The position numbers and the translations under genes are program-made. Positions 1,167-63,651 of a stretch of DNA of 64,000 nucleotides are shown here, piece by piece (position 1 is the first letter of the stretch; every line of letters begins with the position of its first letter). Under the pieces are notes generated by a model that was not told the origin of the DNA, ran no database searches, and worked only from the letters and a program-made list of their open reading frames with translations. This stretch comes from a virus: positions 124,001 through 188,000 of the IMG/VR virus record IMGVR_UViG_3300028840_001395; one strand, 5' to 3'.

Positions 1167-1202
1167 ACCTAGACTACTCTCGCGTGTGCCCGTGTAAGCC
1201 CC
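1167..1202 (-). promoter_or_regulatory. Phage-type promoter, minus strand
   Basis: Read on the minus strand, the -35-like GCTTAC (1194-1199) is preceded by a G run and followed after exactly 17 bp by TAGTCT (1171-1176) and AGGTG. It overlaps the stop codon of the 1169-1504 gene and points at the 1152 and nadD genes. Confidence 0.75.
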
Positions 1203-8923: not shown

Positions 8924-10000
8924 TCACTCGGGCACCTGGGGAAGCTCATCGGTCAGGAAGCCCGCCTTGACCAGTTCCGCTCGCGTCCCCAGCATCGGGA
9001 TGTTCGGGTTCGCCTTGTGTCTCGTCTGCGCCTCGGCCCGGCGGGCAGCCTTGAGGAAGTCCAGCACGAACGCCTTGGGCACCGGCTGCCAGAGGGCGCT
9101 CTTCACCGCGAAGCCTTCGAGGGACTTCCAATCCGGCTCCGTGAAATCGAACAGCACCTTGTCCACCTGGACGAGGCTGCTGTAGCGCACATCGTAGTAG
9201 GGGATCTCCACATCGAGGAACCGGCTCACCCGCTCGATGGTGCCGATACGCATGATGTCGCCCGTGTCCGGGTTGATGCGCCCGTAGGTGAAGGGCATCC
9301 CGAGCCAGTCGAGAAGCTCCTTCTCGTCCGAGTGCCCATCCCCGGTCCCCCACAGGTCGGGCGACGGGGTGGCCTCGATGATGGGCCGGACGACATCGTA
9401 GATGCCCAGCTTGTTGCCCAGGTAGAAGGCAAGCTGGTACACCTCGGTCTTGCTCAGCATGGCGAGCGGATTGGTGTCCACCTCGCCGTCGCCGCCCTTC
9501 TGGTAGAAGCGCAGCCAGCGATCCTCGCACTCGTTGCCGGTCCCGTGCCGGATGCCCCCGCCCATGATGCGGTTGTAGGCACGACCGATGGGTGCCCGCA
9601 GGGTCGAGCGGATGCTTCCGAGGATGGTCGGGTCGGCATCCATGCGTTCCTTGATCTCGGTGCCGATGTCGGTGCCGAAGTGGGCGTCCACGAGCGACGT
9701 GATCACCTCGTCACGGACGTTGTTGAAGATGTCGTTGAAGTGTCCGATGGCCAGAGGCACCTGGAGAGCCTCGCACAGCTCCCGCGCACGGTCGGTCTGC
9801 TGGAAGCTCGTGTGGATGATGGTGTGGTCGAAGATGCAGTTCTCCGGCCCCAGCGCCTTCACGAGCAACATCGTCATCACGGCGGAGTCGATGCCCCCGG
9901 AGATGTCGAGCTGCGCCTTCGGAACCCCGAACTCGTCGTGATACTCACGGATGGACTGCATCCGGTCACGAGCGAGTCCCTTGGCATCAATGACAGGCAT
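8924..10000 (-). CDS. nadE: NAD synthetase, ammonia-dependent type
   Basis: 358 residues from the ATG at 10000, which shares its A with the stop of the upstream gene. LDISGGIDSAV (31-41) is the ATP-pyrophosphatase loop of NAD synthetases. No glutaminase domain is present, so free ammonia should be the nitrogen donor. The enzyme converts nicotinate adenine dinucleotide to NAD+. It is longer than the common 275-residue NadE. Neighbours are the NAPRTase and nicotinamidase genes, which make it the last step of a deamidating salvage route. Confidence 0.9.
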   Translation of the reverse strand: MPVIDAKGLARDRMQSIREYHDEFGVPKAQLDISGGIDSAVMTMLLVKALGPENCIFDHTIIHTSFQQTDRARELCEALQVPLAIGHFNDIFNNVRDEVITSLVDAHFGTDIGTEIKERMDADPTILGSIRSTLRAPIGRAYNRIMGGGIRHGTGNECEDRWLRFYQKGGDGEVDTNPLAMLSKTEVYQLAFYLGNKLGIYDVVRPIIEATPSPDLWGTGDGHSDEKELLDWLGMPFTYGRINPDTGDIMRIGTIERVSRFLDVEIPYYDVRYSSLVQVDKVLFDFTEPDWKSLEGFAVKSALWQPVPKAFVLDFLKAARRAEAQTRHKANPNIPMLGTRAELVKAGFLTDELPQVPE

Positions 10001-11466
10001 CACATACCTCCCCGGACACGCGCCCACTGCTCCTTGATCATGGCCTTCAGCGCCCTCGTGTGTTCCGACACCTCGGGCTTCACGGTGTCCGTGTGGGTCA
10101 GCCGGTGGAAGCCCTTCGGCTCGGACTCCCACTCCTGGCCGACGACGCTGCGCTTGCCATCCTCACTGCGGAAGATCACGGGCTTGCCGGGCAAGGACAT
10201 CTTGCCCTCGACGGCGAACTTCATCACGTCGCGCTCGCCCGTCCGGCACAGCTTGTAGACCGCCGACACGGCGTTCCGGGTGAACTTGTGCGGGGAGGGG
10301 TCGCAGACGAGGAAGCCGCCAGAGCCGTAGCCCGACTGCTCGGGAGTGATGCCCAGCGACTCGCAGAGCACCTCCTGCGCTCGCGCCTTGAGGACGTTGA
10401 TTCCGTCCATGAACATGTAGAAGGGATTGACGTGTTCCTCGGCCTCGGCCTGGACGTACTCGCGGAGCTGAGCCTCCTGGTCGCCCGAGTCGAAGCGGAC
10501 ACCGTGCTGGATGTCCGGGCGTTCCTTCATCGCCTGGACGGCGGCGGGGATGCCGACCTCCATCGCGTCGAAGGTGTCGAACAGGTAGGAGGGCCGCTGC
10601 GGGCGCATGTCCCGGATGGCCCGGAAGGCGTCCAGGTCGTTGCCCCACCGCTGCTGATGCTCGTGGCCCGTGGTGCCGACCGGCACCATCCCCATCTGCT
10701 TCGCGCCCCAGACGTTCGATGTCCGGGTGATGCCCGCCTCCTTGCAGGCGGACAGGGCGATCTCGTGCATCTGGAGGCAGGTCGCGCCTCGCATCCCGAC
10801 CTCGAAGATGCGGTCGCCGCCGACGATGTTGACCAGCCCCTTGGCGTTGTGGAGCACCTTCATGAAGTAGTCGTCCTGCTGGACGGTGATGTCCCGGTCA
10901 TCCTCGCGCTCGATGGCCTCGCAGGTGAGCCGGACGATCTCGGCCTCATCCTCGCAGGTGCAGCGGAACTCACGGGTGTCGTTGGTCAGCACCTCGGTTG
11001 CGATCTGGATGGGGAAGTGCAGGGCGATGGCCAGCGGCTCCAGCCACGACACCAGGAACGAGGGGCCGGTGATGGTGGCGATGGGTTCCCGTGCCATGAC
11101 CCAGGTGCCAGGAGGCGCACAGGTGACCTCGATGTCCTGCTTGAGCGCGACCTCCATCGACTGCGACATGCCGTAGCCGAACATCCGGAGGTAGTCGTTC
11201 TCACCGGGCCAGATCTCGTCCGGCAGCAGCTCGCGGATGAGCAGGTTGAGGTCGAAGGGGATGTAGTGGGTGCCACGTCGGAAGGACAGGTAGAACGTCT
11301 CGCGCCGGAGGGGGAAGCCCGCCTGGGCCATCGAGAACTTGTAGCCGTCCGACATCAGCACGGACGGATCCTTGCCGTTGAGCATCCGCCCGGCGACATC
11401 GAACTCGATGCACTGGTCGGTTCCGACCCTCGCCAGTCTGCTCTGTCTCTTTGCTCTCTCGTTCAC
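10000..11466 (-). CDS. pncB: Nicotinate phosphoribosyltransferase-like enzyme
   Basis: 488 residues starting with GTG at 11466, with GGAGG about 10 nt upstream. SDGYKFSMAQ (39-48), TSNVWGAKQMGMVPVGTTGHE and LFDTFDAMEVGIPAA match the NAPRTase pattern (SNVLAGK...GT.AHS...DTYDT). The reaction is nicotinate plus PRPP to nicotinate mononucleotide. Nicotinamide phosphoribosyltransferase (NadV) is a relative, but the adjacent nicotinamidase and NAD synthetase favour nicotinate as substrate. It is the first gene of the operon and has two tandem promoters, host-type (11488-11516) and phage-type (11537-11565). Confidence 0.85.
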   Translation of the reverse strand: MNERAKRQSRLARVGTDQCIEFDVAGRMLNGKDPSVLMSDGYKFSMAQAGFPLRRETFYLSFRRGTHYIPFDLNLLIRELLPDEIWPGENDYLRMFGYGMSQSMEVALKQDIEVTCAPPGTWVMAREPIATITGPSFLVSWLEPLAIALHFPIQIATEVLTNDTREFRCTCEDEAEIVRLTCEAIEREDDRDITVQQDDYFMKVLHNAKGLVNIVGGDRIFEVGMRGATCLQMHEIALSACKEAGITRTSNVWGAKQMGMVPVGTTGHEHQQRWGNDLDAFRAIRDMRPQRPSYLFDTFDAMEVGIPAAVQAMKERPDIQHGVRFDSGDQEAQLREYVQAEAEEHVNPFYMFMDGINVLKARAQEVLCESLGITPEQSGYGSGGFLVCDPSPHKFTRNAVSAVYKLCRTGERDVMKFAVEGKMSLPGKPVIFRSEDGKRSVVGQEWESEPKGFHRLTHTDTVKPEVSEHTRALKAMIKEQWARVRGGM

Positions 11467-11536: not shown

Positions 11537-11565
11537 AGACTACTCTCGCGGGAACACAGATAAGC
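11537..11565 (-). promoter_or_regulatory. Phage-type promoter, minus strand
   Basis: GCTTAT (11560-11565), 17 bp, TAGTCT (11537-11542). It overlaps the end of the 11540-12172 gene and points at pncB, giving the NAD operon a second promoter upstream of the host-type one. Confidence 0.75.
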
Positions 11566-12172
11566 CTGAAATTCCCGGCTCCCCTCCCATCCTCGGAGGG
11601 TCAGGCAATCCGTTGTGTTTCCAGATGAGTCGCATCAGTCGATCCTCGGCGTCCGCGACAACGGCCCAGGTCATGGCCACCGAGGACACCCCCTCTTTCT
11701 GGACGACTGCGGTGAGGAGCTTCCGGGCGTTCTCCTTCGCGTGACCCTGGAACAGGTTCCACAGGCTGCCATGCTCTCGTCCGGCGTCCATGAGGCGGTT
11801 GTATCGTTCGTGGCCTCGCAGGTAGCCGATGACGTGGACCAGGAGGTAGCGCCGGGGGTTGTCGCTGGGACGCTCGACACCAAGCTCCTTGTAGAGCCAG
11901 GTGAAGTAGAACGAGTGCTGTATCGACACCGTGGCCAGGCCGAGAGGCACCCTCTCGCTGATGAGCCTGTATTGCTCATCGTGAACGTCGCTGATCTGGA
12001 GGCACTGCAACATGAACTCGGGGTACACGCCCCTGATGTTGTTCAGCACCTCCTTCATGTAGATGCACGCTTCGCCCTGACGCTTGAGGTAGGCGTCCAT
12101 GTCGAGATTCTGTGCCCACTCGGGCGGGGACTTGGCGGGGATGTTGAAGTCGAGGTCTTTCATCAGAGGCAT
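11540..12172 (-). CDS. Hypothetical protein, 210 aa
   Basis: A soluble, mostly helical protein with many aromatic and Met residues (for example SFYFTWLYKELG) and an internal HERYNRLMDAGREHG. I recognise no family. It overlaps the end of the CoaB-like gene by about 10 bp, so it is the last gene of the unit started at 14774-14802. Its stop lies in the next promoter. Confidence 0.75.
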   Translation of the reverse strand: MPLMKDLDFNIPAKSPPEWAQNLDMDAYLKRQGEACIYMKEVLNNIRGVYPEFMLQCLQISDVHDEQYRLISERVPLGLATVSIQHSFYFTWLYKELGVERPSDNPRRYLLVHVIGYLRGHERYNRLMDAGREHGSLWNLFQGHAKENARKLLTAVVQKEGVSSVAMTWAVVADAEDRLMRLIWKHNGLPDPPRMGGEPGISGLSVFPRE

Positions 12173-14773: not shown

Positions 14774-14802
14774 AGACTACTCTGCCAGGGTGGAAAGTAA
14801 GC
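14774..14802 (-). promoter_or_regulatory. Phage-type promoter, minus strand
   Basis: GCTTAC (14797-14802), 17 bp, TAGTCT (14774-14779), with the usual G run before and AGGTGG after. It lies in the 46-bp gap upstream of the macrodomain gene. Confidence 0.78.
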
Positions 14803-14803
14803 C

Positions 14804-17737: not shown

Positions 17738-18763
17738 CTACTTGCCGTCCCGCACCTTGCAGATGGTGGCGACCAGGGCCACCTTGCCGCCCCGGATCTT
17801 GCTCGCGCCGACGATCTCCAGGTGGCAGGTCGCGTAGCGCCGGAGGTGGTGGAGATCCTGCTTGAGCAGGCCCGCCGAGTCCTTCCGGTTGAAGCGGTGG
17901 AACCGCTTGCGCTCCGTGGACGTGGGCGGCGTGACCTGGCCCCGCGTCTTCCCCTTGGCCTTGACCTTGGTGGTCTTGCCCGGCTTCTTGCCGTCCGCAG
18001 CCGCCTGGGTGACCGTGCGCTTCGCGGGGGCGGGCACGTCGCGGGCCGGGATGGTCGTGCTCCCCAGCTTGGCCCCGTGGAAGCCGATGACCTCGTACTC
18101 GCAGACGCGCATCTTGCGGGCGGACTCGTCGTAGGGCACGCTGACCACGTTCTCCGGATCCACCTTGCAGATGACCACGCGGGGGCCGAAGGTCTCGGCG
18201 TAGGACAGCGCCCCGACGTGGAACCCCTCGTGGCACGCCTCGCGCGGGTCGTCGCTGATCTTGTTGCGGGGCATCCGGTTGGTCGCGCCCGGCTTGTTGT
18301 TCCACTGGCCGGAGTGCAAGTCCTTGAGCCTGTGGGTGACGCCCTTGTACGCCAGGAAGCACCCATCCTCGGTGATGGGGTGCCCGCCGTGCTGCAAGAA
18401 GGCGAAGAGTTGCTCCACCGACCGCTTCGACGGGTTGCGGGCCAGGCGCTCGAAGAAGCGGCAGAGCGGCTTCGGATCCTCGCCCCGCTGGAGCATGGCC
18501 GTCAGGCGCTTGCCGAACGCGGCGGGGACGGACTCGCCCTGGTAGCGCACGGCGTCGTCCTGGAGGGTGAACTCGCCCTCCGACCAGGACGCGACGGCCC
18601 GCTTGACCGTCAGGAAGCCGGGCACCTCGTCCCAGGCCTTGCGCTCCAACGCCGACTTGAGGCCCTTGAAGTGCGGGCTCGACTCGGCCACCGTGAAGGG
18701 CTGGCCCTTGTACACGATGCTGATGGAATCGGTGGTCATCGTGAAGCTCGGGATGGTACTCAT
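17738..18763 (-). CDS. rIIB: RIIB-like protein
   Basis: 341 residues from the ATG at 18763, preceded by AGGAGG. The central part carries the RIIB signature GCFLAYKGVTHRLKDLHSG, RMPRNKISDDPREAC, GFHVGALSYAETFG and VDPENVVSVPYDESARKMRVC, as in T4 rIIB. A Lys/Pro-rich linker (about 245-280) separates a C-terminal tail. In T4, RIIA and RIIB protect against prophage-encoded exclusion such as RexAB; the mechanism is not settled. It has its own phage-type promoter and lies directly after rIIA. Confidence 0.93.
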   Translation of the reverse strand: MSTIPSFTMTTDSISIVYKGQPFTVAESSPHFKGLKSALERKAWDEVPGFLTVKRAVASWSEGEFTLQDDAVRYQGESVPAAFGKRLTAMLQRGEDPKPLCRFFERLARNPSKRSVEQLFAFLQHGGHPITEDGCFLAYKGVTHRLKDLHSGQWNNKPGATNRMPRNKISDDPREACHEGFHVGALSYAETFGPRVVICKVDPENVVSVPYDESARKMRVCEYEVIGFHGAKLGSTTIPARDVPAPAKRTVTQAAADGKKPGKTTKVKAKGKTRGQVTPPTSTERKRFHRFNRKDSAGLLKQDLHHLRRYATCHLEIVGASKIRGGKVALVATICKVRDGK

Positions 18764-18789: not shown

Positions 18790-20943
18790 CTAGCCTACTC
18801 TGTCGAGAGCCGAAGTAAGCCCCCCGGCATTCTTCTTGGCCTCGCGGGTATCGACCATCTTGATGTACTCGGCCCACTCGTTCGCCTCGACCCAGGTGGG
18901 CTTGTCCGCGTACCGGCTGTCCGGCTCCCACAGGGCCTCGACACTCGCGTGCCGGGTGAACAGCGGGTAGCGATCCCTGATGCGCTTGAGCGCCGGGCCT
19001 GCGGTCGGATGCTTCGGCCCGCCGAACCGCTGGCGCAGAGTACCCATGATATCGCGGATCTTGCGGGGGCACTTGTTCATCGTCTTGATGCCCCGCAGGT
19101 GCCGCTCGAACAGCTTGACGATGGGGTGATCCTCGCCCAGGAGCTTGACCAGGTGCTCCTTGACGGCCTCGGCCTTCGCCGCCTGGGTCTTGCCCTTCCA
19201 GGGGTTGTGGTAGCCGCTCGTCCAGCTCGTCCGGAGCAGGTTCGCCCACTCGTTGTAGGACATGTAGCGCCACAGGAGCGGGGTCATCTTGCCCTCGAAG
19301 AACTTGTCGCGCCACACGCGGTAGTTCATCCCGTCGCAGTCCTTGTCCGTGACCGGCTTCTTGCTGGTGGTCTTGTATCCGTAGACCTCGGGCATCTCCA
19401 GCCCCAGGGCGTCGGCCAGGTACTTGTCCTGCTCGTAGGCCCGGTAGAAGTCCCCGAAGTCCACGGCCTCGAAGCGGCTGATGATGACGAACACGTCATC
19501 GTCCGTGGGCTCCCGATCCACGATCTCCCAGTTCCGCGAGCGGGAGCCGTAGGTCGAGGTGCCCACCAGCCGGAAGCTGCGGACGCGGTGCTTCTTGTTC
19601 GGGGTGCGCCCGTTGTTGGCCTGGACGACCGAGTAGGGCAGCGTCGAGATGTCCACCACCTCGATGCCGACCATCCCGGCCTTCTTGAGCAGCTTGGCCA
19701 GGAAGTCTCGGACGGCCTGCATCGACTCGCCGGGGTTGGGATTGACCACGTAGTCGTACTGGCCCAGGCGGTAGCCCTTGATCTTCTTCTTGTCGTTGCG
19801 GATGACGATCCGGGTGTCGCTGTTGACCATGACCTGCCCGACCGCCGAGCTTCCCCGCAGGATGGTGAACGGAACCTTCGTGCCCTTCTTGATCTTGTCG
19901 TAGAGTCGGACGTTCTCGGCCACCCACTCCTTCGCGGAGTCGGGGAACGGCAGGCCCAGCTTGCCCATCCCGTGCAGGCGCAGGCGCTTGGCCCAGGAGA
20001 GCACCTTGTCGTCCTTGAGCATTTTCAGGGAGTGCTCGACGTACTCCTCGAACAGCTTCTCGAAGCGGGAGAGGAGGATCTCCTTCGTCCGCTTGGAGTA
20101 CTTCAGCTCCTCGCGGCTGGCGCTGATCTCGACCTCCCCGATGTCGAACTTGAGCACTCCGCTCATCCGGTTCAGCGGGAGCCACAGCCCCTCGGCCTCG
20201 TCGCTCCCGCGAAGCTGCTCGATGTTGATGCGGTAGGGGACGCAGCCCATGAGGGCCAGCCACTCGCCGTCATCCTCGTGGACGACACCGCTCGGGAGCA
20301 CCGCCGCCGCCTCCTTCTCGGGGGCCAGCGTGACGTTGATCTCCGGACGCGGGGTGTAGTAGCTGTAGAGGTTGCGGGCCTTGCGCTCGAACTCCCACAG
20401 GTCTTCCGGCCTCACCGCGACCTTGACCTCCACGCCGGTCTCGCTCTCGTCGCAGGGCTCCTCGTGGAGCCGCTGCATGACGCCCAGGTCGGAGTCGTCC
20501 AGCGCCGCCACGTACACCCGCTTCATGCCCCCGTGCCAGGAGGTGATGGTGAAGGTGTCGCTGTAGGCGAACGCCGACTTGGAGCCGATGCCGAGCATCC
20601 CGACCGCCAGGTCGGAGCCCCGCTTGGTGGACTTGCCGTACTGGGTGTAGACCGTGAACACCTCGGCGTCCGAGAGGCCCGGCCCGAAGTCCCGGATGGT
20701 CAGCGTCGGGTCGGCGTTGGTCGGGACGTGGATCTTGAGCGGGGTGTCGCCCCGCCCCGCCTCGCGGTTGGCATCCCAGGCGTTGGCCCCGTACTCGCGC
20801 AAGACCGCGAGCACCCGGTCGGTGTACAGGGTGTCGCGCAGGATGCCCATGATGTGGGCGGTGTCGTCGGCGGAGATGCCGAACGTCGCCTGCTCGCTGA
20901 CGCCGCTGCTCTGCACGTTGCGATCCTTGGAATTGGGAATCAT
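18790..20943 (-). CDS. rIIA: RIIA-like protein with GHKL ATPase domain
   Basis: 717 residues, close to T4 RIIA in length. The N-terminal GHKL (Hsp90-type) ATPase motifs are present: REYGANAWDANRE (49-61, N box), RDFGPGL (84-90, G1) and GMLGIGSKSAFAYSD (115-129, G2). The remainder matches the layout of RIIA, a membrane-associated partner of RIIB. It is the third gene of the unit starting at the promoter 21320-21348, and its 3-prime end overlaps the rIIB promoter. Confidence 0.93.
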   Translation of the reverse strand: MIPNSKDRNVQSSGVSEQATFGISADDTAHIMGILRDTLYTDRVLAVLREYGANAWDANREAGRGDTPLKIHVPTNADPTLTIRDFGPGLSDAEVFTVYTQYGKSTKRGSDLAVGMLGIGSKSAFAYSDTFTITSWHGGMKRVYVAALDDSDLGVMQRLHEEPCDESETGVEVKVAVRPEDLWEFERKARNLYSYYTPRPEINVTLAPEKEAAAVLPSGVVHEDDGEWLALMGCVPYRINIEQLRGSDEAEGLWLPLNRMSGVLKFDIGEVEISASREELKYSKRTKEILLSRFEKLFEEYVEHSLKMLKDDKVLSWAKRLRLHGMGKLGLPFPDSAKEWVAENVRLYDKIKKGTKVPFTILRGSSAVGQVMVNSDTRIVIRNDKKKIKGYRLGQYDYVVNPNPGESMQAVRDFLAKLLKKAGMVGIEVVDISTLPYSVVQANNGRTPNKKHRVRSFRLVGTSTYGSRSRNWEIVDREPTDDDVFVIISRFEAVDFGDFYRAYEQDKYLADALGLEMPEVYGYKTTSKKPVTDKDCDGMNYRVWRDKFFEGKMTPLLWRYMSYNEWANLLRTSWTSGYHNPWKGKTQAAKAEAVKEHLVKLLGEDHPIVKLFERHLRGIKTMNKCPRKIRDIMGTLRQRFGGPKHPTAGPALKRIRDRYPLFTRHASVEALWEPDSRYADKPTWVEANEWAEYIKMVDTREAKKNAGGLTSALDRVG
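18792..18820 (-). promoter_or_regulatory. Phage-type promoter, minus strand
   Basis: GCTTAC (18815-18820), 17 bp, TAGGCT (18792-18797), one change from the usual TAGTCT. It sits over the last codons of rIIA and 29 bp upstream of rIIB. Confidence 0.72.
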
Positions 20944-21319: not shown

Positions 21320-21348
21320 AGACTACTCTCGTCCCTGTCTAAATAAGA
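21320..21348 (-). promoter_or_regulatory. Phage-type promoter, minus strand
   Basis: TCTTAT (21343-21348), 17 bp, TAGTCT (21320-21325). It drives the small signal-peptide gene, the 67-residue gene and rIIA. Confidence 0.75.
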
Positions 21349-21349
21349 C

Positions 21350-22322: not shown

Positions 22323-22351
22323 AGACTACTCTGGCCCAGGGCGAAATAAGA
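22323..22351 (-). promoter_or_regulatory. Phage-type promoter, minus strand (divergent pair, left)
   Basis: TCTTAT (22346-22351), 17 bp, TAGTCT (22323-22328). It drives ardC. Its upstream side is A/T-rich and faces the plus-strand promoter at 22408-22436. Confidence 0.78.
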
Positions 22352-22373
22352 CCCCATCTGAAATAAAAAGTAC

Positions 22374-22395: not shown

Positions 22396-22407
22396 CGCGC
22401 GAAAGGG

Positions 22408-22436
22408 TCTTATCTCGGGCCGGGACAGAGTAGTCT
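22408..22436 (+). promoter_or_regulatory. Phage-type promoter, plus strand (divergent pair, right)
   Basis: TCTTAT (22408-22413), 17 bp, TAGTCT (22431-22436), then AGGTGG. It drives the HD-hydrolase operon, with a leader of about 190 nt. Confidence 0.78.
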
Positions 22437-25297: not shown

Positions 25298-25578
25298 GCA
25301 AGATCACCTGGGAACCTGTCCACCCCATCCACCACAACAAGCGAGCCGGAGGCAAGCTCCCCAAGAGCTACACCGAGGTCGCCCATATCGGGGATGTGAT
25401 TCTGTTCAAGAGCAAGACCCGCATCCGAGCTGGACTACCGCTCACGGGCTGCGACATGACGGCCACGCCGAAGAAGGGTCAGACCCTCAACGAGGTCGCC
25501 AGAATCGTGGCCCGGCGGGTCCAGGCCGAGGTGGACATCCTGGCTCAACGGTTCCAGAGGGGCTTACTGCGGCCCTGA
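25294..25578 (+). CDS. Hypothetical protein, 94 aa
   Basis: A basic protein with VAHIGDVILFKSKTR, perhaps a short beta barrel, and a helical end (NEVARIVARRVQAEVDILAQRF). It is the last gene of the unit. Its stop region lies within the next phage-type promoter. Confidence 0.7.
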   Translation: MSKITWEPVHPIHHNKRAGGKLPKSYTEVAHIGDVILFKSKTRIRAGLPLTGCDMTATPKKGQTLNEVARIVARRVQAEVDILAQRFQRGLLRP

Positions 25579-25590
25579 ATGGAGTAGTCT
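25562..25590 (+). promoter_or_regulatory. Phage-type promoter, plus strand, separated from its gene by an HNH insertion
   Basis: GCTTAC (25562-25567), 17 bp, TAGTCT (25585-25590). The next plus-strand gene starts only at 26222. The 630-bp gap holds an HNH endonuclease on the opposite strand, so the promoter was probably closer to the exonuclease gene before the insertion. Confidence 0.72.
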
Positions 25591-28651: not shown

Positions 28652-28670
28652 CAGACAATCTCTTCGAGGG

Positions 28671-28699
28671 TCTTATCTCCCCGCGTGGGGGAGTAGTCT
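28671..28699 (+). promoter_or_regulatory. Phage-type promoter, plus strand
   Basis: TCTTAT (28671-28676), 17 bp, TAGTCT (28694-28699), then AGGTG. It drives the TrpF-like gene and the two small genes after it. Confidence 0.78.
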
Positions 28700-28806: not shown

Positions 28807-29529
28807 ATGAAGCTGGAACGCATCACCATCACGGGACTCGACAGGAAGACGGACGTGTTCCGCCTGGAGAGGATCGCCAAGGGCTTCTGGCCCCTGCCGG
28901 AGTTCGGTATCCTGGCCAGTCCCTCGCGGGCGGGCAAAGACCCGCGCTACCCGAGGATGGATGAGATCAAGAGGTGGCTCGGTCACGCCCGGCTGTTCAA
29001 GATGGCCGTCCACGTCTGCGGACGTTTCTCGCGGAAGCCGGGGGAGTTCTTCGAGACCATCGGGGAGCACTCCCGCTTCTTCGAGCGGATGCAGTGGAAC
29101 GTGGCCCCGTCGCACCTCAAGCCGAAGGCGGTCACGGAGATGGCCATGAGGGCGTCGGAGGGGCAGCACACGGTCATCGTCCAGATACGGGACGAAGCCA
29201 GCGTCGAGCTTCTCCGCACCCTCCAGGACAACCATGTCTCGGCACAACCGCTGTTCGACGCCTCTGGTGGTCGGGGCGTGCCGTTCGAGACGGTGCAGGA
29301 GCCGCTTGACATCCCCGCAGAGGGACGTTGGACGGGCTACGCGGGTGGAATCACCCCCGAGACCGTTTCGGGCGTCCTGGAGCGCCTGGAGGCCGAGCTT
29401 CCGAAGGACCAGCCGGTCTGGATCGACATGGAGACCGGCGTGCGGACCGACGACTGGCTCGACCTGGACAAGGTGCAGGAGGTTCTCTGCCGCTGCTTCA
29501 TCTTCATGCAGGAGCAGAAGCGATCATGA
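28807..29529 (+). CDS. Phosphoribosylanthranilate isomerase-like TIM-barrel protein
   Basis: 240 residues. ITGLDRKTDV and FGILASPSRAGKDPRY at the N-terminus, LFDASGGRGVPF near residue 155, GYAGGITPETV and VWIDMETGVRTDDWLDLDKV near the end follow the TrpF layout (KxCGI..., DS..GGTGxxFDW, LAGGLxPxNV, GVDVSSGVE..G.KD). The phosphate-binding loops are kept, but the usual catalytic Cys region is changed (HVCGRF). It may bind or isomerise a phosphoribosyl compound, which would fit phosphoribosyl chemistry elsewhere in the window. Confidence 0.68.
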   Translation: MKLERITITGLDRKTDVFRLERIAKGFWPLPEFGILASPSRAGKDPRYPRMDEIKRWLGHARLFKMAVHVCGRFSRKPGEFFETIGEHSRFFERMQWNVAPSHLKPKAVTEMAMRASEGQHTVIVQIRDEASVELLRTLQDNHVSAQPLFDASGGRGVPFETVQEPLDIPAEGRWTGYAGGITPETVSGVLERLEAELPKDQPVWIDMETGVRTDDWLDLDKVQEVLCRCFIFMQEQKRS

Positions 29530-30636: not shown

Positions 30637-30844
30637 GTCAAACCCCGCTCTAGACAGACGTCACATGACGCCTCCTATAAAATCCCCCCCTATAGCCTAT
30701 CCACCGAAGATGAACCGACACCACCCGATATTTGCATGGTAAATAGCGATTATTACAGGGAACACTACACTTAACTTTCGACCCCCTGCAAGCTCATCTA
30801 AGTGCCTTGTAACCCCCACTTCAGCTCGACATCGTCTTGAGGGG
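30637..30844. other. Non-coding A/T-richer gap
   Basis: About 210 bp between the start of the minus-strand gene at 30636 and the next promoter. It contains C runs, a TATAAAAT stretch (minus-strand TTTATA) that may serve the 30636 gene, and no open frame or clear inverted repeat that I can support. Confidence 0.5.
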
Positions 30845-30873
30845 GCTTACCCGTAGGTCCAATGGAGTAGTCT
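30845..30873 (+). promoter_or_regulatory. Phage-type promoter, plus strand
   Basis: GCTTAC (30845-30850) after a G run, 17 bp, TAGTCT (30868-30873). It drives the five-gene unit 30922-34092. Confidence 0.78.
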
Positions 30874-34092: not shown

Positions 34093-34363
34093 GGAAGAAA
34101 AAAGGCCCCTTGTCTATATAAAGGCCCCTCCCCTGAGAGCATACTTCTTTAACTTTCATCAATGTTTGCAAACTTCGGCCCCCCATAGCCCCCAAAGAAC
34201 CCGTTTCGGATTCGGAAGTGAGATTTTCAGTACAACTTCAATTTGAGATTTTTGACTACCGACCCCCTCTCGAAAAGTTTTTTATCCGGTTTTCACACCC
34301 CTCCCCCTACCTACCCCACCAGTCCTCCCCCTGGTAACGCGAGAGATCCATGACGCCTCACCA
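34093..34363. other. Non-coding A/T-richer region, left part of a 0.66-kb gap
   Basis: No gene is seen. It contains a direct repeat AAAGGCCCCT (near 34105 and 34124), scattered AACTTC words, long C runs and T runs. It separates the end of the 30.9-34.1 kb unit from the promoter at 34369. An origin or binding region is possible but I see no iteron array. Confidence 0.5.
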
Positions 34364-34381
34364 CGAAGTTGTCAAACTTCG
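34364..34381. promoter_or_regulatory. Palindromic operator over a -35 box
   Basis: CGAAGTT (34364-34370), GTCA, AACTTCG (34375-34381) is a perfect 7-bp inverted repeat centred on the TTGTCA -35 element. A related palindrome, GAAGTT-TGG-AACTTC, lies inside the sigma-like gene (35382-35396). Confidence 0.5.
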
Positions 34382-34397
34382 CCTCACATGTTATACT
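34369..34397 (+). promoter_or_regulatory. Host-type promoter in the non-coding region
   Basis: TTGTCA (34369-34374), 17 bp, TATACT (34392-34397). No convincing gene follows on the plus strand before the end of the sigma-like gene on the other strand, so the product is probably a non-coding RNA. Confidence 0.68.
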
Positions 34398-34403
34398 CAA
34401 TGT

Positions 34404-34645
34404 TTCACCTAGACCCATAGTAAGCAAACTCGTAGTCAGCCCAGCCCCAGGTTTCATTACTTCGGGCAGCCGGGCTCAATCTTTGGGGCTGTCGGGTCGT
34501 GTGAGGTCGGCTTGGGTCGGCGCGGGTTGGAGGCTTCGGGAAGAGTCATTCATCTAAGTGGCCTACAAGGGCTGTGTATCTAAGGCTACAGGCGGCCCGA
34601 AACTGCAGGTGGCCGCCTGCCTTAAAACAGACTGGTTTTTCTTGA
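34404..34645 (+). ncRNA. Candidate non-coding RNA from the 34369 promoter
   Basis: The expected transcript has no supported open frame. Near its 3-prime part it can form a 9-bp hairpin, CAGGCGGCC (34589-34597) with 34611-34619, then AAAAC/GTTTT flanking a small loop and a T run (34636-34640) that could end transcription. The ends are approximate. A role as a regulatory or decoy RNA is inference. Confidence 0.4.
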
Positions 34646-34666
34646 CCCCCCGCTCTCACACGGGGG

Positions 34667-34753
34667 AGCTACCCCACCCAGGAGGAGGAGTCCTCCTCGT
34701 GTCGCCTGCGGGAAGTGGACGCTGCCCCGGAGACTCTGCGGGGTGGGGTAGCT
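34667..34753. repeat. Nested inverted repeat at the end of the sigma-like gene
   Basis: A 13-bp perfect inverted repeat, AGCTACCCCACCC (34667-34679) with 34741-34753, encloses a second hairpin with arms 34682-34688 and 34692-34698 (loop AGT). The right arm overlaps the stop codon of the sigma-like gene. It could be a terminator without a U tract, or an RNA structure. Confidence 0.55.
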
Positions 34754-35789
34754 AGGCTTTCGTCTGCCTGCGCCAGTCAGCCGCCACCTGACGGATGAGA
34801 CTCATCCCTCTGCTCACCATGTTCATGCTGACCTGAATCAAGTCCGACAGCTCTGCCCGTGTGTACCCCTCCTCCACATAGGGCAAGAGCCGGAGAGCTA
34901 CCTGACCGTCCCTGGTCTGCTGTACCCGTGGGTCTGCCCGGATGAACTCCACCAAGGCGTTGGCTTCCAGACACTGGGCCTGACTGGGCTCCTGGCACCC
35001 TGTAGGGTTCGACAGGAGACTCGCACCCGAAGCCACGTCCACAGAGGTCAGGTCACCATGATCCCAGCCCGGTGCCCCTACCTGCTCGACAGCCCTCCGC
35101 CGGGTCATCCTCCGATGGTAGTTGGCCACGATGCAGCCACAGACCATGTGGACGTAGTGGCCGAAGGAGGACTTCCTGGAGTCCCAAGGGCACCGACCCT
35201 TGTTCCTCGACAGCAGACCCTTGTAGACCTCCTGCAACACGTCCTCGGGGTCATAGCCAGCAGCATAGACCCGCTGACCGAACCCAGCATAGAACAGCTT
35301 CGCCACCTCATGTGACCGATTCACCAGGTCAATACCCAGAGGTTGAGTCGAAGTTACGAAACTCGCGTCCGGCGCAGGGTCGAAGTTTGGAACTTCCGTG
35401 ACCGTGAGGGCCGGGGAAGTTTCGATAGGCATCCCGGAGGGCGTAGTTGCGAGGTCATCGGGAAGAAAGAGGTCGAGAGCGGGTACTATGGGTTGGTTGT
35501 GAGCGAGGGTGAGGCTTGGGGGGGCATGGCGGCCTGTCTTGAAGTATCGGTCGAAGGTCCAGTTGCGAGCGTTGGGGTGGCCGGTGATGGCGATGAGCAA
35601 CTGGCGTGCTGACGTGAAGGTCTGGACGGGGCCTCCCCCTGAAGCCAGGGAGGGTCGGAGTTGGAAGTCCCCGTCCGGTGTCAGAATCACTTTGTCTGCA
35701 CCATCCCTCCACCGACTGTAGAGATACTTCGACTTCGCAGTGCGGGTGCCTTCGCTTCGTTTTGCGCGAAGGTTTGACTTTCCGGGCAT
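34752..35789 (-). CDS. Phage sigma-70-family-like factor with extra N-terminal domain
   Basis: 345 residues. Residues about 160-235 (EVAKLFYAGFGQRV, DPEDVLQEVYKGLL, then FGHYVHMVCGCIVANYHRRMTRRRA) follow sigma region 2. Residues about 295-342 (VALRLLPYVEEGYTRAELSDLIQVSMNMVSRGMSLIRQ) follow region 4 with its helix-turn-helix. This is the two-domain layout of ECF-type sigma factors. The first 150 residues are extra: a basic start, a beta/helix segment and a Pro-rich linker. It has a host-type promoter. It is the best candidate for recognising the repeated TAGTCT promoters. A remote helix-turn-helix regulator is the alternative. Confidence 0.75.
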   Translation of the reverse strand: MPGKSNLRAKRSEGTRTAKSKYLYSRWRDGADKVILTPDGDFQLRPSLASGGGPVQTFTSARQLLIAITGHPNARNWTFDRYFKTGRHAPPSLTLAHNQPIVPALDLFLPDDLATTPSGMPIETSPALTVTEVPNFDPAPDASFVTSTQPLGIDLVNRSHEVAKLFYAGFGQRVYAAGYDPEDVLQEVYKGLLSRNKGRCPWDSRKSSFGHYVHMVCGCIVANYHRRMTRRRAVEQVGAPGWDHGDLTSVDVASGASLLSNPTGCQEPSQAQCLEANALVEFIRADPRVQQTRDGQVALRLLPYVEEGYTRAELSDLIQVSMNMVSRGMSLIRQVAADWRRQTKA

Positions 35790-35856
35790 CCCCTGACCCC
35801 CTTCGGTCTAGCGACCCTCCGTTTTATGGCACGTCATTCATTTGCTCCCTCTACCA

Positions 35857-35885
35857 TTCCTACGGATAGGGCGTTGGGCTGTCAA
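35857..35885 (-). promoter_or_regulatory. Host-type promoter of the sigma-like gene
   Basis: On the minus strand TTGACA (complement of 35880-35885), 17 bp, TAGGAA (complement of 35857-35862), about 65 bp upstream of the ATG at 35789. It predicts early expression of the sigma-like factor by host polymerase. Confidence 0.65.
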
Positions 35886-36267: not shown

Positions 36268-37020
36268 CTATGATACCCCACTGGACGCTTGTGCGGGTGG
36301 GCAGGCCATGAATTTCAGGGTGTCGTGTATATGCAGGGCGATGGAGTCTGCGTCGTGGGTGATCTTGTTGAGGTCATATCTGCCCGTGTCGGTGACGATG
36401 GGGCTGTGGAGGTAGAAGATGACGGCCATGTCAGTGGTGTCGGTGTCTTGGACTTCGAGCACCCAGGGCAGATGAGGGCCTCCGTATCGTCTATCGATGC
36501 AGCGGGCGATGACGTAGAGGGCCAGGATGGAGGCCGAAGTCATCCAGATGCCGAAGGGGTGCTTGCCGTGTCCACAGCAGGACTCGAAGGTCTTGATGCC
36601 GGGTACGTGGTTGAGGGCGTCACAGAGCCTTCGGCACTCGGGGTCGAAGTCGGGGTCGTGGTGATAGTCGAATCGGCCCCCCTGGGGGCTGGCCATTTGG
36701 AGGCCGTGGTCACGGCGTAGTTGCAGATGGAGCTTGTAGAGCCACGCTCGGTCAATGGCGTTGAACGTGGTGCTGGGAGCGTCGTCTTGGTGCTCCAGTA
36801 GGAAGTCGAGTCCGTTGCGGGTCATCCTGTAGCTGTAGGGGCCTCTGTCTCCCCAGTCTCCTTTGCCTGTTCTCATGAGGCATCCTCTGTCGTGGAGGCT
36901 CTTGAGGGCGGCGGAGACTTTCCGGGTTGGGAGGTTGAGCTTCTGGGCGAGGCTTCGGGCTTCGATGGCCGTGTCCAGGGCCGACAGTGCGAGGAGGACT
37001 TGTTCTTGTAGGGGGGTCAT
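36268..37020 (-). CDS. Winged-helix protein with C-terminal ESCCGHGK domain
   Basis: 250 residues. Residues 1-75 form a winged helix-turn-helix (LSALDTAIEARSLAQKLNLPTRKVSAALKSLHDRGCL). The C-terminal domain has GIKTFESCCGHGKHPFGIWM, a Cys/His motif found in several phage proteins of unknown role, and ends near a His-rich helix. It is probably a transcriptional regulator or a DNA-binding accessory factor. It is co-transcribed with the ribbon-helix-helix gene upstream. Confidence 0.78.
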   Translation of the reverse strand: MTPLQEQVLLALSALDTAIEARSLAQKLNLPTRKVSAALKSLHDRGCLMRTGKGDWGDRGPYSYRMTRNGLDFLLEHQDDAPSTTFNAIDRAWLYKLHLQLRRDHGLQMASPQGGRFDYHHDPDFDPECRRLCDALNHVPGIKTFESCCGHGKHPFGIWMTSASILALYVIARCIDRRYGGPHLPWVLEVQDTDTTDMAVIFYLHSPIVTDTGRYDLNKITHDADSIALHIHDTLKFMACPPAQASSGVS

Positions 37021-37023
37021 GTG

Positions 37024-37254
37024 CTAGGGGCCTCCCGTGATGGTCGCGCCACCGGGCGCACCCGCGCTAGGGGCATCGCCGTCGAGGTTGATGGACAGGG
37101 CTTCTTGGATACCGAGGGCGATGAGGTTGACCACGGCGTCAGTTCGGGAGACGTGTTTCCCTGGCCCTGCGTGAGCTTGGAGTCTGGCCTGGTGGAATTC
37201 GATATCCCGTAGCAGTGGTTCGGGGATACGGACGGTGACTTGCTTGGTGCTCAT
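37024..37254 (-). CDS. Ribbon-helix-helix (CopG/Arc-like) DNA-binding protein
   Basis: 76 residues. KQVTVRIPEPLLRDIEFHQARL followed by SRTDAVVNLIALGIQEAL is the strand-helix-helix of CopG-type repressors. The tail is Gly/Ala/Pro-rich. It lies three bases before the winged-helix gene. Inverted repeats close by (37281-37316 and 37577-37596) are possible binding sites, including for self-control. Confidence 0.82.
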   Translation of the reverse strand: MSTKQVTVRIPEPLLRDIEFHQARLQAHAGPGKHVSRTDAVVNLIALGIQEALSINLDGDAPSAGAPGGATITGGP

Positions 37255-45858: not shown

Positions 45859-46538
45859 CGCTTCTCCTGTGCAAGCTCCCATGCCTGCTCTGCGAGCTTC
45901 CGGGCGTCCTCGACCGGCGCTCCCTGCATATAGATACCTGCCTCACCCCGGAGACAGGCGGATTCGTGATGGCTCTGCGCCCAAGCGGCCAGGAAGCTGA
46001 TCACGAACTCCTCCACGAACCGAGCCTTGGACAGAGACTTGCCCTCCATCCACGGGGAGAGCATCCCTGACAAGACTACTCTAGGAAGGGCGTTCAATAA
46101 GCCCTCTACCGTCTGGGTGATTCGCATGGACACCTCGATGAACGTCCTGTTCACGGCGTCCAGGAGGGCCGTGAGCGCCTGATCGACCGTCTTGCGGCCC
46201 TCACACCCCACCGGGAACATCGGTTGCCCCAGAGGCATATCGATCCCCGCTCCCCAGCCGTTCGCCCGCTCGTCGCCCGTGATGGGGCAGAGGTCTGGCT
46301 CCTCATACCAGACGTGGATGACGGCGACCTTGCCCCCGTGGGGGTCGCCCTGGTCGGGCCAGCCGTGGAAGCTCTGGCAGCGAGGCTCTCCGGGGCCGGG
46401 GCCGGTCACACCGGAGTATTTCCACTTCATCGCCATCGGGGTCAGCTTCTGGAGCTTCTCGATGGTTTTCAGGGCGAAGTGGGCGTCCGCCTCGGCCTGG
46501 GCATCTTCCTCGGTTCCAGGGTAGTTTACGGGCATCAT
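45855..46538 (-). CDS. Hypothetical protein, 227 aa, with an internal promoter-like motif
   Basis: No family recognised. The first half has GEPRCQSFHGWPDQGDPHGGKVAVIHVWYEEPDLCPI; the second half is helical and ends DARKLAEQAWELAQEKR. A phage-type promoter motif (46073-46102, 18-bp spacer) lies within the gene, just before an internal Met at about residue 158, so a shorter protein may also be made. Confidence 0.7.
   Translation of the reverse strand: MMPVNYPGTEEDAQAEADAHFALKTIEKLQKLTPMAMKWKYSGVTGPGPGEPRCQSFHGWPDQGDPHGGKVAVIHVWYEEPDLCPITGDERANGWGAGIDMPLGQPMFPVGCEGRKTVDQALTALLDAVNRTFIEVSMRITQTVEGLLNALPRVVLSGMLSPWMEGKSLSKARFVEEFVISFLAAWAQSHHESACLRGEAGIYMQGAPVEDARKLAEQAWELAQEKR
46073..46102 (-). 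promoter_or_regulatory. Possible internal phage-type promoter
   Basis: GCTTAT (46097-46102) and TAGTCT (46073-46078) with an 18-bp spacer instead of 17, inside the 45855-46538 coding region. It would serve the minus-strand genes down to 44675. Confidence 0.45.
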
Positions 46539-49783: not shown

Positions 49784-49812
49784 AGACTACTCCGCCGGAG
49801 TGCCGGGTAAGC
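49784..49812 (-). promoter_or_regulatory. Phage-type promoter, minus strand
   Basis: GCTTAC (49807-49812), 17 bp, TAGTCT (49784-49789). It lies in the 49-bp gap upstream of the 49766 gene. Confidence 0.75.
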
Positions 49813-49815
49813 CCC

Positions 49816-58247: not shown

Positions 58248-58276
58248 AGACTACTCTGTCGGAAGGGAAATTAAGC
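58248..58276 (-). promoter_or_regulatory. Phage-type promoter, minus strand
   Basis: GCTTAA (58271-58276) after a G run, 17 bp, TAGTCT (58248-58253). It overlaps the end of the 58271 gene and points at the 58229 gene. Confidence 0.72.
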
Positions 58277-59239
58277 CCCTGCTACCAGGCTCTTGGATAG
58301 CGATACCCAGCCCACGAAGTCATCCCAGCGGGCGTTGTCGAGGGTCGTATCGTCCAGCATCGGTTCATCCTCGGCACCCCGCACCATGCACCGGGACGAG
58401 TTGGGCCTGATCTGGACGAGGATGTCCCGATCCCTCTTGACCCTGACCAGGACGCTCACGATGAGACTGCCACTCTCAAGATCCTGGGTTTCGTTCAAGA
58501 TCCAGAGCTTGTCCGGCACCTCGGGGAACACGTCACGGAGAAGCTCCATGACCTTGCGGATGAATGCCGTGGAGGCCCTGTAGCCGCCCGCATCAGGCGG
58601 GAGCTTGCGAAGGGCCACCTCGGGGCGAATGAACTGAGGCAGTGTGTCGTTGTGAGGGGTCATATCGCTCTCCTCCGAGGGCTTGCTGAAGCTGTCCTCG
58701 GGCATCGGATTGCTCTTGAGCACGGCCTCGGCAGCGGTCACCAGAGCCAACAACGCTCGATTATCCCGTCCTCCGCCCCCCTCCTGCAACCTCTCCTTGA
58801 CCTCGGTGAGTGCCTCCTCGGTCAGGGGCGGCGGGTCAGTTTCCGGCTTGGCGTCCCAGTCAACGGGCCGGGCAGCCTTGGGGTCACCTACGGGGTAGCC
58901 CTCCTCGGTGTCCGCCGGAGGTGGAGTGAGCATCTCCGAGTCCACCTTGCCTGCGAGAGCCTGTGCTGCCTCGGTGTAGGTGGTGTTGTAGAGTGAATCA
59001 CGGGTCGAACCCGTGGTGCTCATAGGCCCAGCGATCAGCCGACCATCACGGATGGCCTCCTCGGTTTCTGCATCAATGTCCGCCCGAACTTCCGGGGGGA
59101 GATCCCTGACCTTGACCGTGTGATTCGCAAGCTGATCATCCAGTTCCTTGAGGTCATCACGGAGCTTCTCCGTGTCCGGTTCCGTGACTACGGTTCCCGT
59201 TCCCTTGACCAGCTTGTGCAGCCATTCACGCAGGCTCAT
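58271..59239 (-). CDS. DFxGWLS-family protein with long flexible N-terminus, 322 aa
   Basis: Residues 1-190 are charged, Pro-rich and of low complexity (EEALTEVKERLQEGGGG). The last 125 residues contain STAFIRKVMELLRDVFPEVPDKLW, strands SLIVSVLVRVKRDRDILVQIR, and the end NARWDDFVGWVSLSKSLVAGA, the recurring domain of this region placed at the C-terminus. Confidence 0.75.
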   Translation of the reverse strand: MSLREWLHKLVKGTGTVVTEPDTEKLRDDLKELDDQLANHTVKVRDLPPEVRADIDAETEEAIRDGRLIAGPMSTTGSTRDSLYNTTYTEAAQALAGKVDSEMLTPPPADTEEGYPVGDPKAARPVDWDAKPETDPPPLTEEALTEVKERLQEGGGGRDNRALLALVTAAEAVLKSNPMPEDSFSKPSEESDMTPHNDTLPQFIRPEVALRKLPPDAGGYRASTAFIRKVMELLRDVFPEVPDKLWILNETQDLESGSLIVSVLVRVKRDRDILVQIRPNSSRCMVRGAEDEPMLDDTTLDNARWDDFVGWVSLSKSLVAGA

Positions 59240-63619: not shown

Positions 63620-63648
63620 AGACTACTCCGAAGGCAGGTCCGATAAGC
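63620..63648 (-). promoter_or_regulatory. Phage-type promoter, minus strand
   Basis: GCTTAT (63643-63648), 17 bp, TAGTCT (63620-63625). It lies in the 48-bp gap upstream of the 63603 gene and starts the run of genes down to 59929. Confidence 0.75.
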
Positions 63649-63651
63649 CCC

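Follow-up and report, generated by a model that had tools for sequence, protein, structure and literature searches.

The late sigma factor gp55 of phage T4 acts on a -10-type box. Its partners in this are the coactivator gp33 and the sliding clamp, gp45 (PMC2988020, PMC7892883). Phage sigma factors of the ECF type that redirect host RNA polymerase have also been described, namely gp47 of Salmonella phage 7-11 and gp36 of Escherichia phage phiEco32; the promoters of 7-11 are bipartite (GTAAtg-16-aCTA) and its early genes use the host sigma70 (PMC8948821). Large phages that lack an RNA polymerase of their own likewise encode sigma factors, which are thought to recruit the host enzyme (PMC7824862 group 2, PMC13282480, moraphages PMC12619734). 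According to one review, jumbo phages without a polymerase are likely to rely on sigma factors of their own that act at phage-specific promoters (PMC13282480), and sigma-driven promoters in such phages have already been inferred in reviews (PMC13282480, PMC7824862). The jumbo-phage factors are described there as minimal HTH, RpoD-like or sigma-F-like, and it is by these descriptions that they are set apart from the protein discussed here; the accessible portions of PMC7824862, PMC13282480 and PMC12619734 give neither a promoter set nor a fused N-terminal domain for them. In the literature searched, no published promoter set was found for such uncultured phages.

The gene considered here comes from a 436-kb uncultured bacterial virus. 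The window, the whole stretch of 64,000 nucleotides that was analysed, spans positions 124001-188000 in a virus record of 435,804 bases (G000). The gene and its parts have the following positions in the window:

34752..35789, minus strand: sigma-like factor gene, 345 aa, ATG start
35520..35732, minus strand: N-terminal conserved domain, about residues 20-90, no known fold
35349..35510, minus strand: low-confidence, probably disordered linker, residues 94-147
35076..35336, minus strand: sigma region 2, residues 152-238
34761..34922, minus strand: sigma region 4 helix-turn-helix, about residues 290-343
35880..35885, minus strand: TTGACA, -35 of a possible host-type promoter, with a poor -10 (TAGGAA) and a spacer of 17

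The initial annotation had given the gene as 34752-35885. The lower coordinate, 34752, stands and the upper one does not; the open reading frame extends to 35789, and 35885 is the 5' end of the upstream TTGACA.

A two-domain sigma-like factor with recognisable regions 2 and 4 had been proposed, and the resemblance to ECF sigma factors in fold and in profile searches supports both parts of this proposal. The window protein alone does not reach the curated cut-offs. Pfam Sigma70_ECF gives E=0.025 and 14.9 bits (cut-off 21.1 bits), TIGR02937 gives E=0.006 and 16.2 bits (cut-off 42.9 bits), the match to PDB sigma-H has E=0.91, and there is no match among the PHROG families. TIGR02937 is matched by 12 of 20 family members at E<=0.01 (best 1.4e-10), five A1 family members have phrog_1740 (RNA polymerase sigma factor) as a match with E<=0.01, and the family profile matches PDB sigma-H 3mzy with E=8e-6 over both sigma regions. 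Fold prediction and comparison with ECF factors had been suggested as a check, and an AlphaFold model of the 345-aa protein (mean pLDDT 71) has E. coli sigmaE as its top Foldseek match (E=7.6e-4, probability 1.00), followed by M. tuberculosis sigmaH and further ECF factors. Its matches among viral models are phage RpoE/ECF proteins, that of GAP52 being one of them. Because the window protein misses the Pfam and TIGR02937 cut-offs, its fold places it no more narrowly than as a diverged ECF-type factor; the Foldseek result, the TIGR02937 matches of family members and the family profile are the reasons why it is accepted, by predicted fold and architecture, as a diverged ECF-type sigma factor.

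In the family alignment, region 2 is the conserved block GIDL-R-EV-KLFYAGF...GYDPEDVLQEVYKGLL-RN-G-CP-D-KSSFGHYVHM...NYHRK. It is the most conserved part of the protein, with a mean pairwise identity of 61% among 15 phages, and the promoter-melting stretch falls within it. Region 4 varies between phages (23% mean identity over residues 280-343). In the model the two regions are joined by a low-confidence linker at residues 254-273, and large regions 1.1 or 3 are not present. The protein resembles group 4 (ECF) factors, such as E. coli sigmaE and M. tuberculosis sigmaH, in its predicted region 2/4 fold, in the lack of regions 1.1 and 3 and in its putative two-box promoters. However, it differs from them in having about 150 extra N-terminal residues, in falling below the Pfam and NCBIfam cut-offs and in that no anti-sigma partner was identified.

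The N-terminal extension of about 150 residues had been recognised as foreign to ECF factors, and 151 residues do precede the conserved GIDL motif. The extension is considered real because about 70 of its residues are conserved in about 20 relatives, which have the pattern YxRxxHG...YPSARxxL...FDRYFR in common. Four strands followed by a helix are predicted for this domain, and neither a fold comparison (best E=0.49) nor a profile search (E=0.66) matched it to a solved structure. Diverged short members of the family, including that of LR745208, do not have the N-terminal domain, and a strong two-box motif is nonetheless found in LR745208 and in G023; a two-box promoter therefore does not require the domain.

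Homology to the described phage factors was not supported. Both phiEco32 gp36 and 7-11 gp47 were rejected as homologues (hhalign probabilities 0.8% and 0.1%) and, unlike the 345-aa protein, are 185-214 aa in length and have no N-terminal domain. They belong to phages of 77-90 kb with few promoters, and the phiEco32 promoters consist of a single box, in contrast to the bipartite element described below. A T4 gp55-type late factor, which had been put forward for comparison, is not supported, given the lack of detectable homology (hhalign probability 0.4%) and an element of 60 sites that is bipartite and not -10 only. The likeness to gp55 would lie in the use of a phage sigma factor with the host core, which is known for gp55 from the literature.

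The family was found at 21 loci in an IMG/VR protein search, many of them on contigs of 150-536 kb, and at 47 loci, on contigs of up to 619 kb, in a profile search. The single match among 50,697 phage records was LR745208, an uncultured phage of 485 kb, and the family is absent from the cultured phages searched. Among the genomes of 84,980 species of bacteria and archaea, three short contigs matched, and nothing else; these are probably phage contigs in bins. The family is single-copy in 16 of the 18 records examined.

The initial annotation considered TAGTCT to be the promoter that this factor reads. By count TAGTCT is not significant because the window has 14 copies where 9.8 are expected, and the count was rejected as a signal; the signal sits in a compound motif. 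GGKCTTAY is found upstream at near-constant spacing in 13 of the 14 copies, and TAGTCT makes up the -10 part of a strict bipartite promoter, GGKCTTAY-N14/15-GAGTAGTCTAGG. The positions 22408 and 28671, named earlier as promoters, mark where the -35 half begins in the sites at 22431 and 28694, respectively. The sites in the window are:

1171..1200, minus strand: bipartite promoter, GGGCTTAC-N-GAGTAGTCT
11537..11566, minus strand: bipartite promoter, 71 bp before the gene at 10000-11466, with a TTGACA-17-TATAAA promoter after it
14774..14803, minus strand: bipartite promoter
18792..18821, minus strand: bipartite promoter, variant TAGGCT, serving the next gene at 17738-18763
21320..21349, minus strand: bipartite promoter
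22323..22352, minus strand: bipartite promoter, divergent pair with the 22431 site
22407..22436, plus strand: bipartite promoter, the earlier 22408
25561..25590, plus strand: bipartite promoter
28670..28699, plus strand: bipartite promoter, the earlier 28671
30844..30873, plus strand: bipartite promoter
49784..49813, minus strand: bipartite promoter
58248..58277, minus strand: bipartite promoter
63620..63649, minus strand: bipartite promoter
46073..46103, minus strand: doubtful site, one of the 13, with both halves and a spacer longer by one base; it lies within a called gene and below the matrix threshold

A search matrix built from the window sites was run over the whole record and over the reversed sequence as a control, and it returned 60 sites in the 435.8-kb record and none in the control. 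The consensus is GGGKCTTAYTTC-N-GAGTAGTCTAGGTGA. The gap from CTTA to GAGTAG is 15 bases in 54 sites and 16 in four, and all 60 spacers are distinct. The geometry, 18 bp between hexamers with a spacer variation of 1, fits a sigma factor. According to gene calls made with a simple caller of our own and no standard program, 57 of the 60 sites are outside called genes (13.5% expected), 58 are on the strand of the next gene and point at it (51% expected), and 38 are both intergenic and no more than 60 bp from a same-strand start (1.8% expected). Most sites lie 13-28 bp ahead of the start of the next gene, and several form divergent pairs.

The exact motif was found in none of 19 related records, and among 2.9 million viral contigs, a set that possibly did not include the record itself, none other has its strict pattern. 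In each of 14 other phages with the sigma gene, unbiased two-word discovery turned up a two-box motif peculiar to that phage, with similar spacing and with zero matches in the reversed control. Examples are GATCATC...GAGTAG, GACTTACTT...GCGTAGAT, GGTAAC...GAGTAG, GGGTTCC...CCGTA, GTTAAAA...CCGTAA and CTAAAAA...CCGATAG. Most of the 14 have a related -10 (GAGTAG, GCGTAG, CCGTAG, CCGTAT and others), and the -35 boxes take up roughly the same position once the motifs are aligned on the -10 core. In samples of up to 100 kb, the best dyad z is 11-41 in most of the 14 (G006 needs more DNA, the top dyads of G002 are repeats and G003 was left out). The corresponding value is 6.5-9 in five of six controls, namely T4, phage G, phiKZ and two huge phages, and the sixth, LR756502, has a dyad of its own at 18. 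The motif of G003 is based on just five sites. No clear motif was seen in 100 kb of five diverged short members or in a dyad scan of G012, G015 and G017 with little DNA each, and a predicted CTTAC-type -35 common to G002 and G003 failed. Mantel tests gave r=0.20 and p=0.04 for region 4 against the -35 (partial r=0.03), r=0.23 and p=0.07 for region 2 against the -10, and r=0.35 and p=0.007 for the cross comparison of region 2 with the -35. Co-variation of protein and motif is not used as proof because the correlation is weak and not domain-specific.

No polymerase gene had been noticed in the window, and this holds for the whole 435.8-kb record, in which the beta and beta' polymerase families have no match. 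No beta subunit family was found in the 22 sigma-bearing records, nor was a T7-type RNAP in a search made without a positive control. Since no polymerase was found and the family is single-copy, reading of the boxes by the family sigma factor with the host core is the simplest account. Sequence and models show the sigma architecture, the conserved N-terminal domain, the bipartite element with its placement, and the joint presence of a family sigma gene and a two-box motif in 15 phages, and the proposal that the factor is the natural reader of the TAGTCT promoters gains support in the form of a bipartite element with a cognate motif in each; the protein-promoter link is correlative and drawn from sequence. 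The protein is a phage ECF-type sigma factor with an added N-terminal domain, and it most likely binds the host core and reads about 60 promoters; being made early, it would provide a middle switch. We infer that early synthesis of the factor would start from a host-type promoter, its gene being without a phage promoter, and that the factor would bind the host RNA polymerase core and direct it to about 60 phage promoters; region 4 would read the -35 (GGKCTTAY) and region 2 the -10 (GAGTAGTCT), a middle gene class would be turned on, and the N-terminal domain may have a role.

Could a sigma factor be present and the element nevertheless have another reader, either a second phage factor that went unrecognised or a phage RNA polymerase that escaped detection? 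This is unlikely. Much of the genome is without known function, the T7-type search had no positive control and a second sigma-like gene is found in G007, G010, G019 and G022, but G000 itself has no second convincing sigma factor (its other PF04542 match has E=0.0045), the spacing and two-box layout are typical of a sigma70-family promoter, and the lack of a beta-subunit family in the 22 records also speaks against another reader. It is very improbable that the protein is instead a sigma-derived regulator that, for example, sequesters or blocks the host polymerase and reads no promoters. Such a role could be accommodated by an N-terminal domain without known function and by the divergence of region 4; however, region 2 with its promoter-melting stretch is the part that is most conserved, and a matching promoter set exists.

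The element could also be a promoter of the host that serves one of its alternative sigma factors and is exploited by the phage. Hosts do have ECF-like promoters. However, sixty highly uniform copies exceed what is expected of a borrowed host promoter, each of the 15 phages has its own variant, the strict pattern recurs in none of the other viral contigs in the set of 2.9 million (possibly without the record itself), and no result of the analysis favours exploitation of a host promoter, which is extremely improbable.

A phage sigma factor made early would be expressed from a host-type promoter, and one had been proposed upstream of the gene. This candidate is weak; its TTGACA is perfect, but the best -10 (TAGGAA) has 3/6 matches and the promoter scan does not report it. 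The motif of the phage's own genome is within 300 bp upstream of none of 14 sigma genes, and TTGACA/TATAAT-like boxes precede the sigma gene in LR745208, G007 and G003. There are 13 sigma70-like sites in G000, 11 of them intergenic, versus 6 in the reversed control. As in 7-11, the sigma gene is without a promoter box of its own, and a bipartite element is found together with sigma70-like sites; this is a likeness in how the systems would work and not one of family membership. Operons that bear the motif include those of the clamp loader, UvsX, the NAD-dependent ligase and rIIA, and those free of it include DNA polymerase, a DnaB-like helicase, ribonucleotide reductase, tail sheath and baseplate. 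Such gene content would suit a middle class, the late genes then being served by another route, and it makes an early-to-middle switch plausible. A search for a second, late motif upstream of the non-motif genes found nothing strong.

Phage ECF sigma factors that redirect host polymerase were already known, and what is new here is the sigma family, its N-terminal domain and the promoter sets. It is nearly as likely as not that this is an unrecognised, widespread family that is core to several uncultured huge-phage lineages, each with its own orthogonal two-box code and a related -10 core, in which the N-terminal domain adds a function new to ECF factors such as polymerase appropriation or regulation. 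With one sigma family and candidate promoters laid out for 15 phages, middle regulons may be predicted from sequence, and the set offers mutually distinct sigma/promoter pairs for testing. The family also exposes a conserved N-terminal domain without a known fold.

Several other observations were made. Beside the sigma gene, about 650 bp (34093-34750) are without a called gene and contain TTGTCA-17-TATACT (34369-34397, plus strand). Directly upstream of it, on the same strand, two small putative regulators are found at 36268-37254 (minus strand); the first is a winged-helix protein (TrmB-like, E=5.5e-4) and the second a repressor-like protein of 76 aa (phrog_4738, E=1.5e-4). The rIIA homologue at 18790-20943 (minus strand; phrog_612, E=1e-98) overlaps with its 3' end the TAGGCT-variant promoter at 18792-18821. 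A 240-aa protein at 28807-29529 (plus strand), with a phage promoter upstream, matches phosphoribosylanthranilate isomerase (PF00697, E=1.3e-6). In the regions of 290-435 kb and 1-85 kb of the G000 record, very large genes on the minus strand (700-3478 aa), those for tail sheath and baseplate among them, are without the phage promoter; ahead of genes that lack the motif, weak TCTATA/CTATAAT words may be the sign of another class. In other phages, the motif of a 618-kb phage seems to be composite (TTGAC..TATCAC..CCCATAcTA), since an additional box separates its -35 from its -10. The dyad in LR756502 (642 kb), TGAAA-12-TATAA, perhaps belongs to another phage promoter system, and tblastn with three family members found no relative there. 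The IMG/VR contigs examined that share the G004 motif are fragments without the sigma gene and also without its neighbours; several of the fragments G031-G038 share the GATCATC-N13-GAGTAG promoter with the G004 phage and can therefore be linked to its lineage by promoter.
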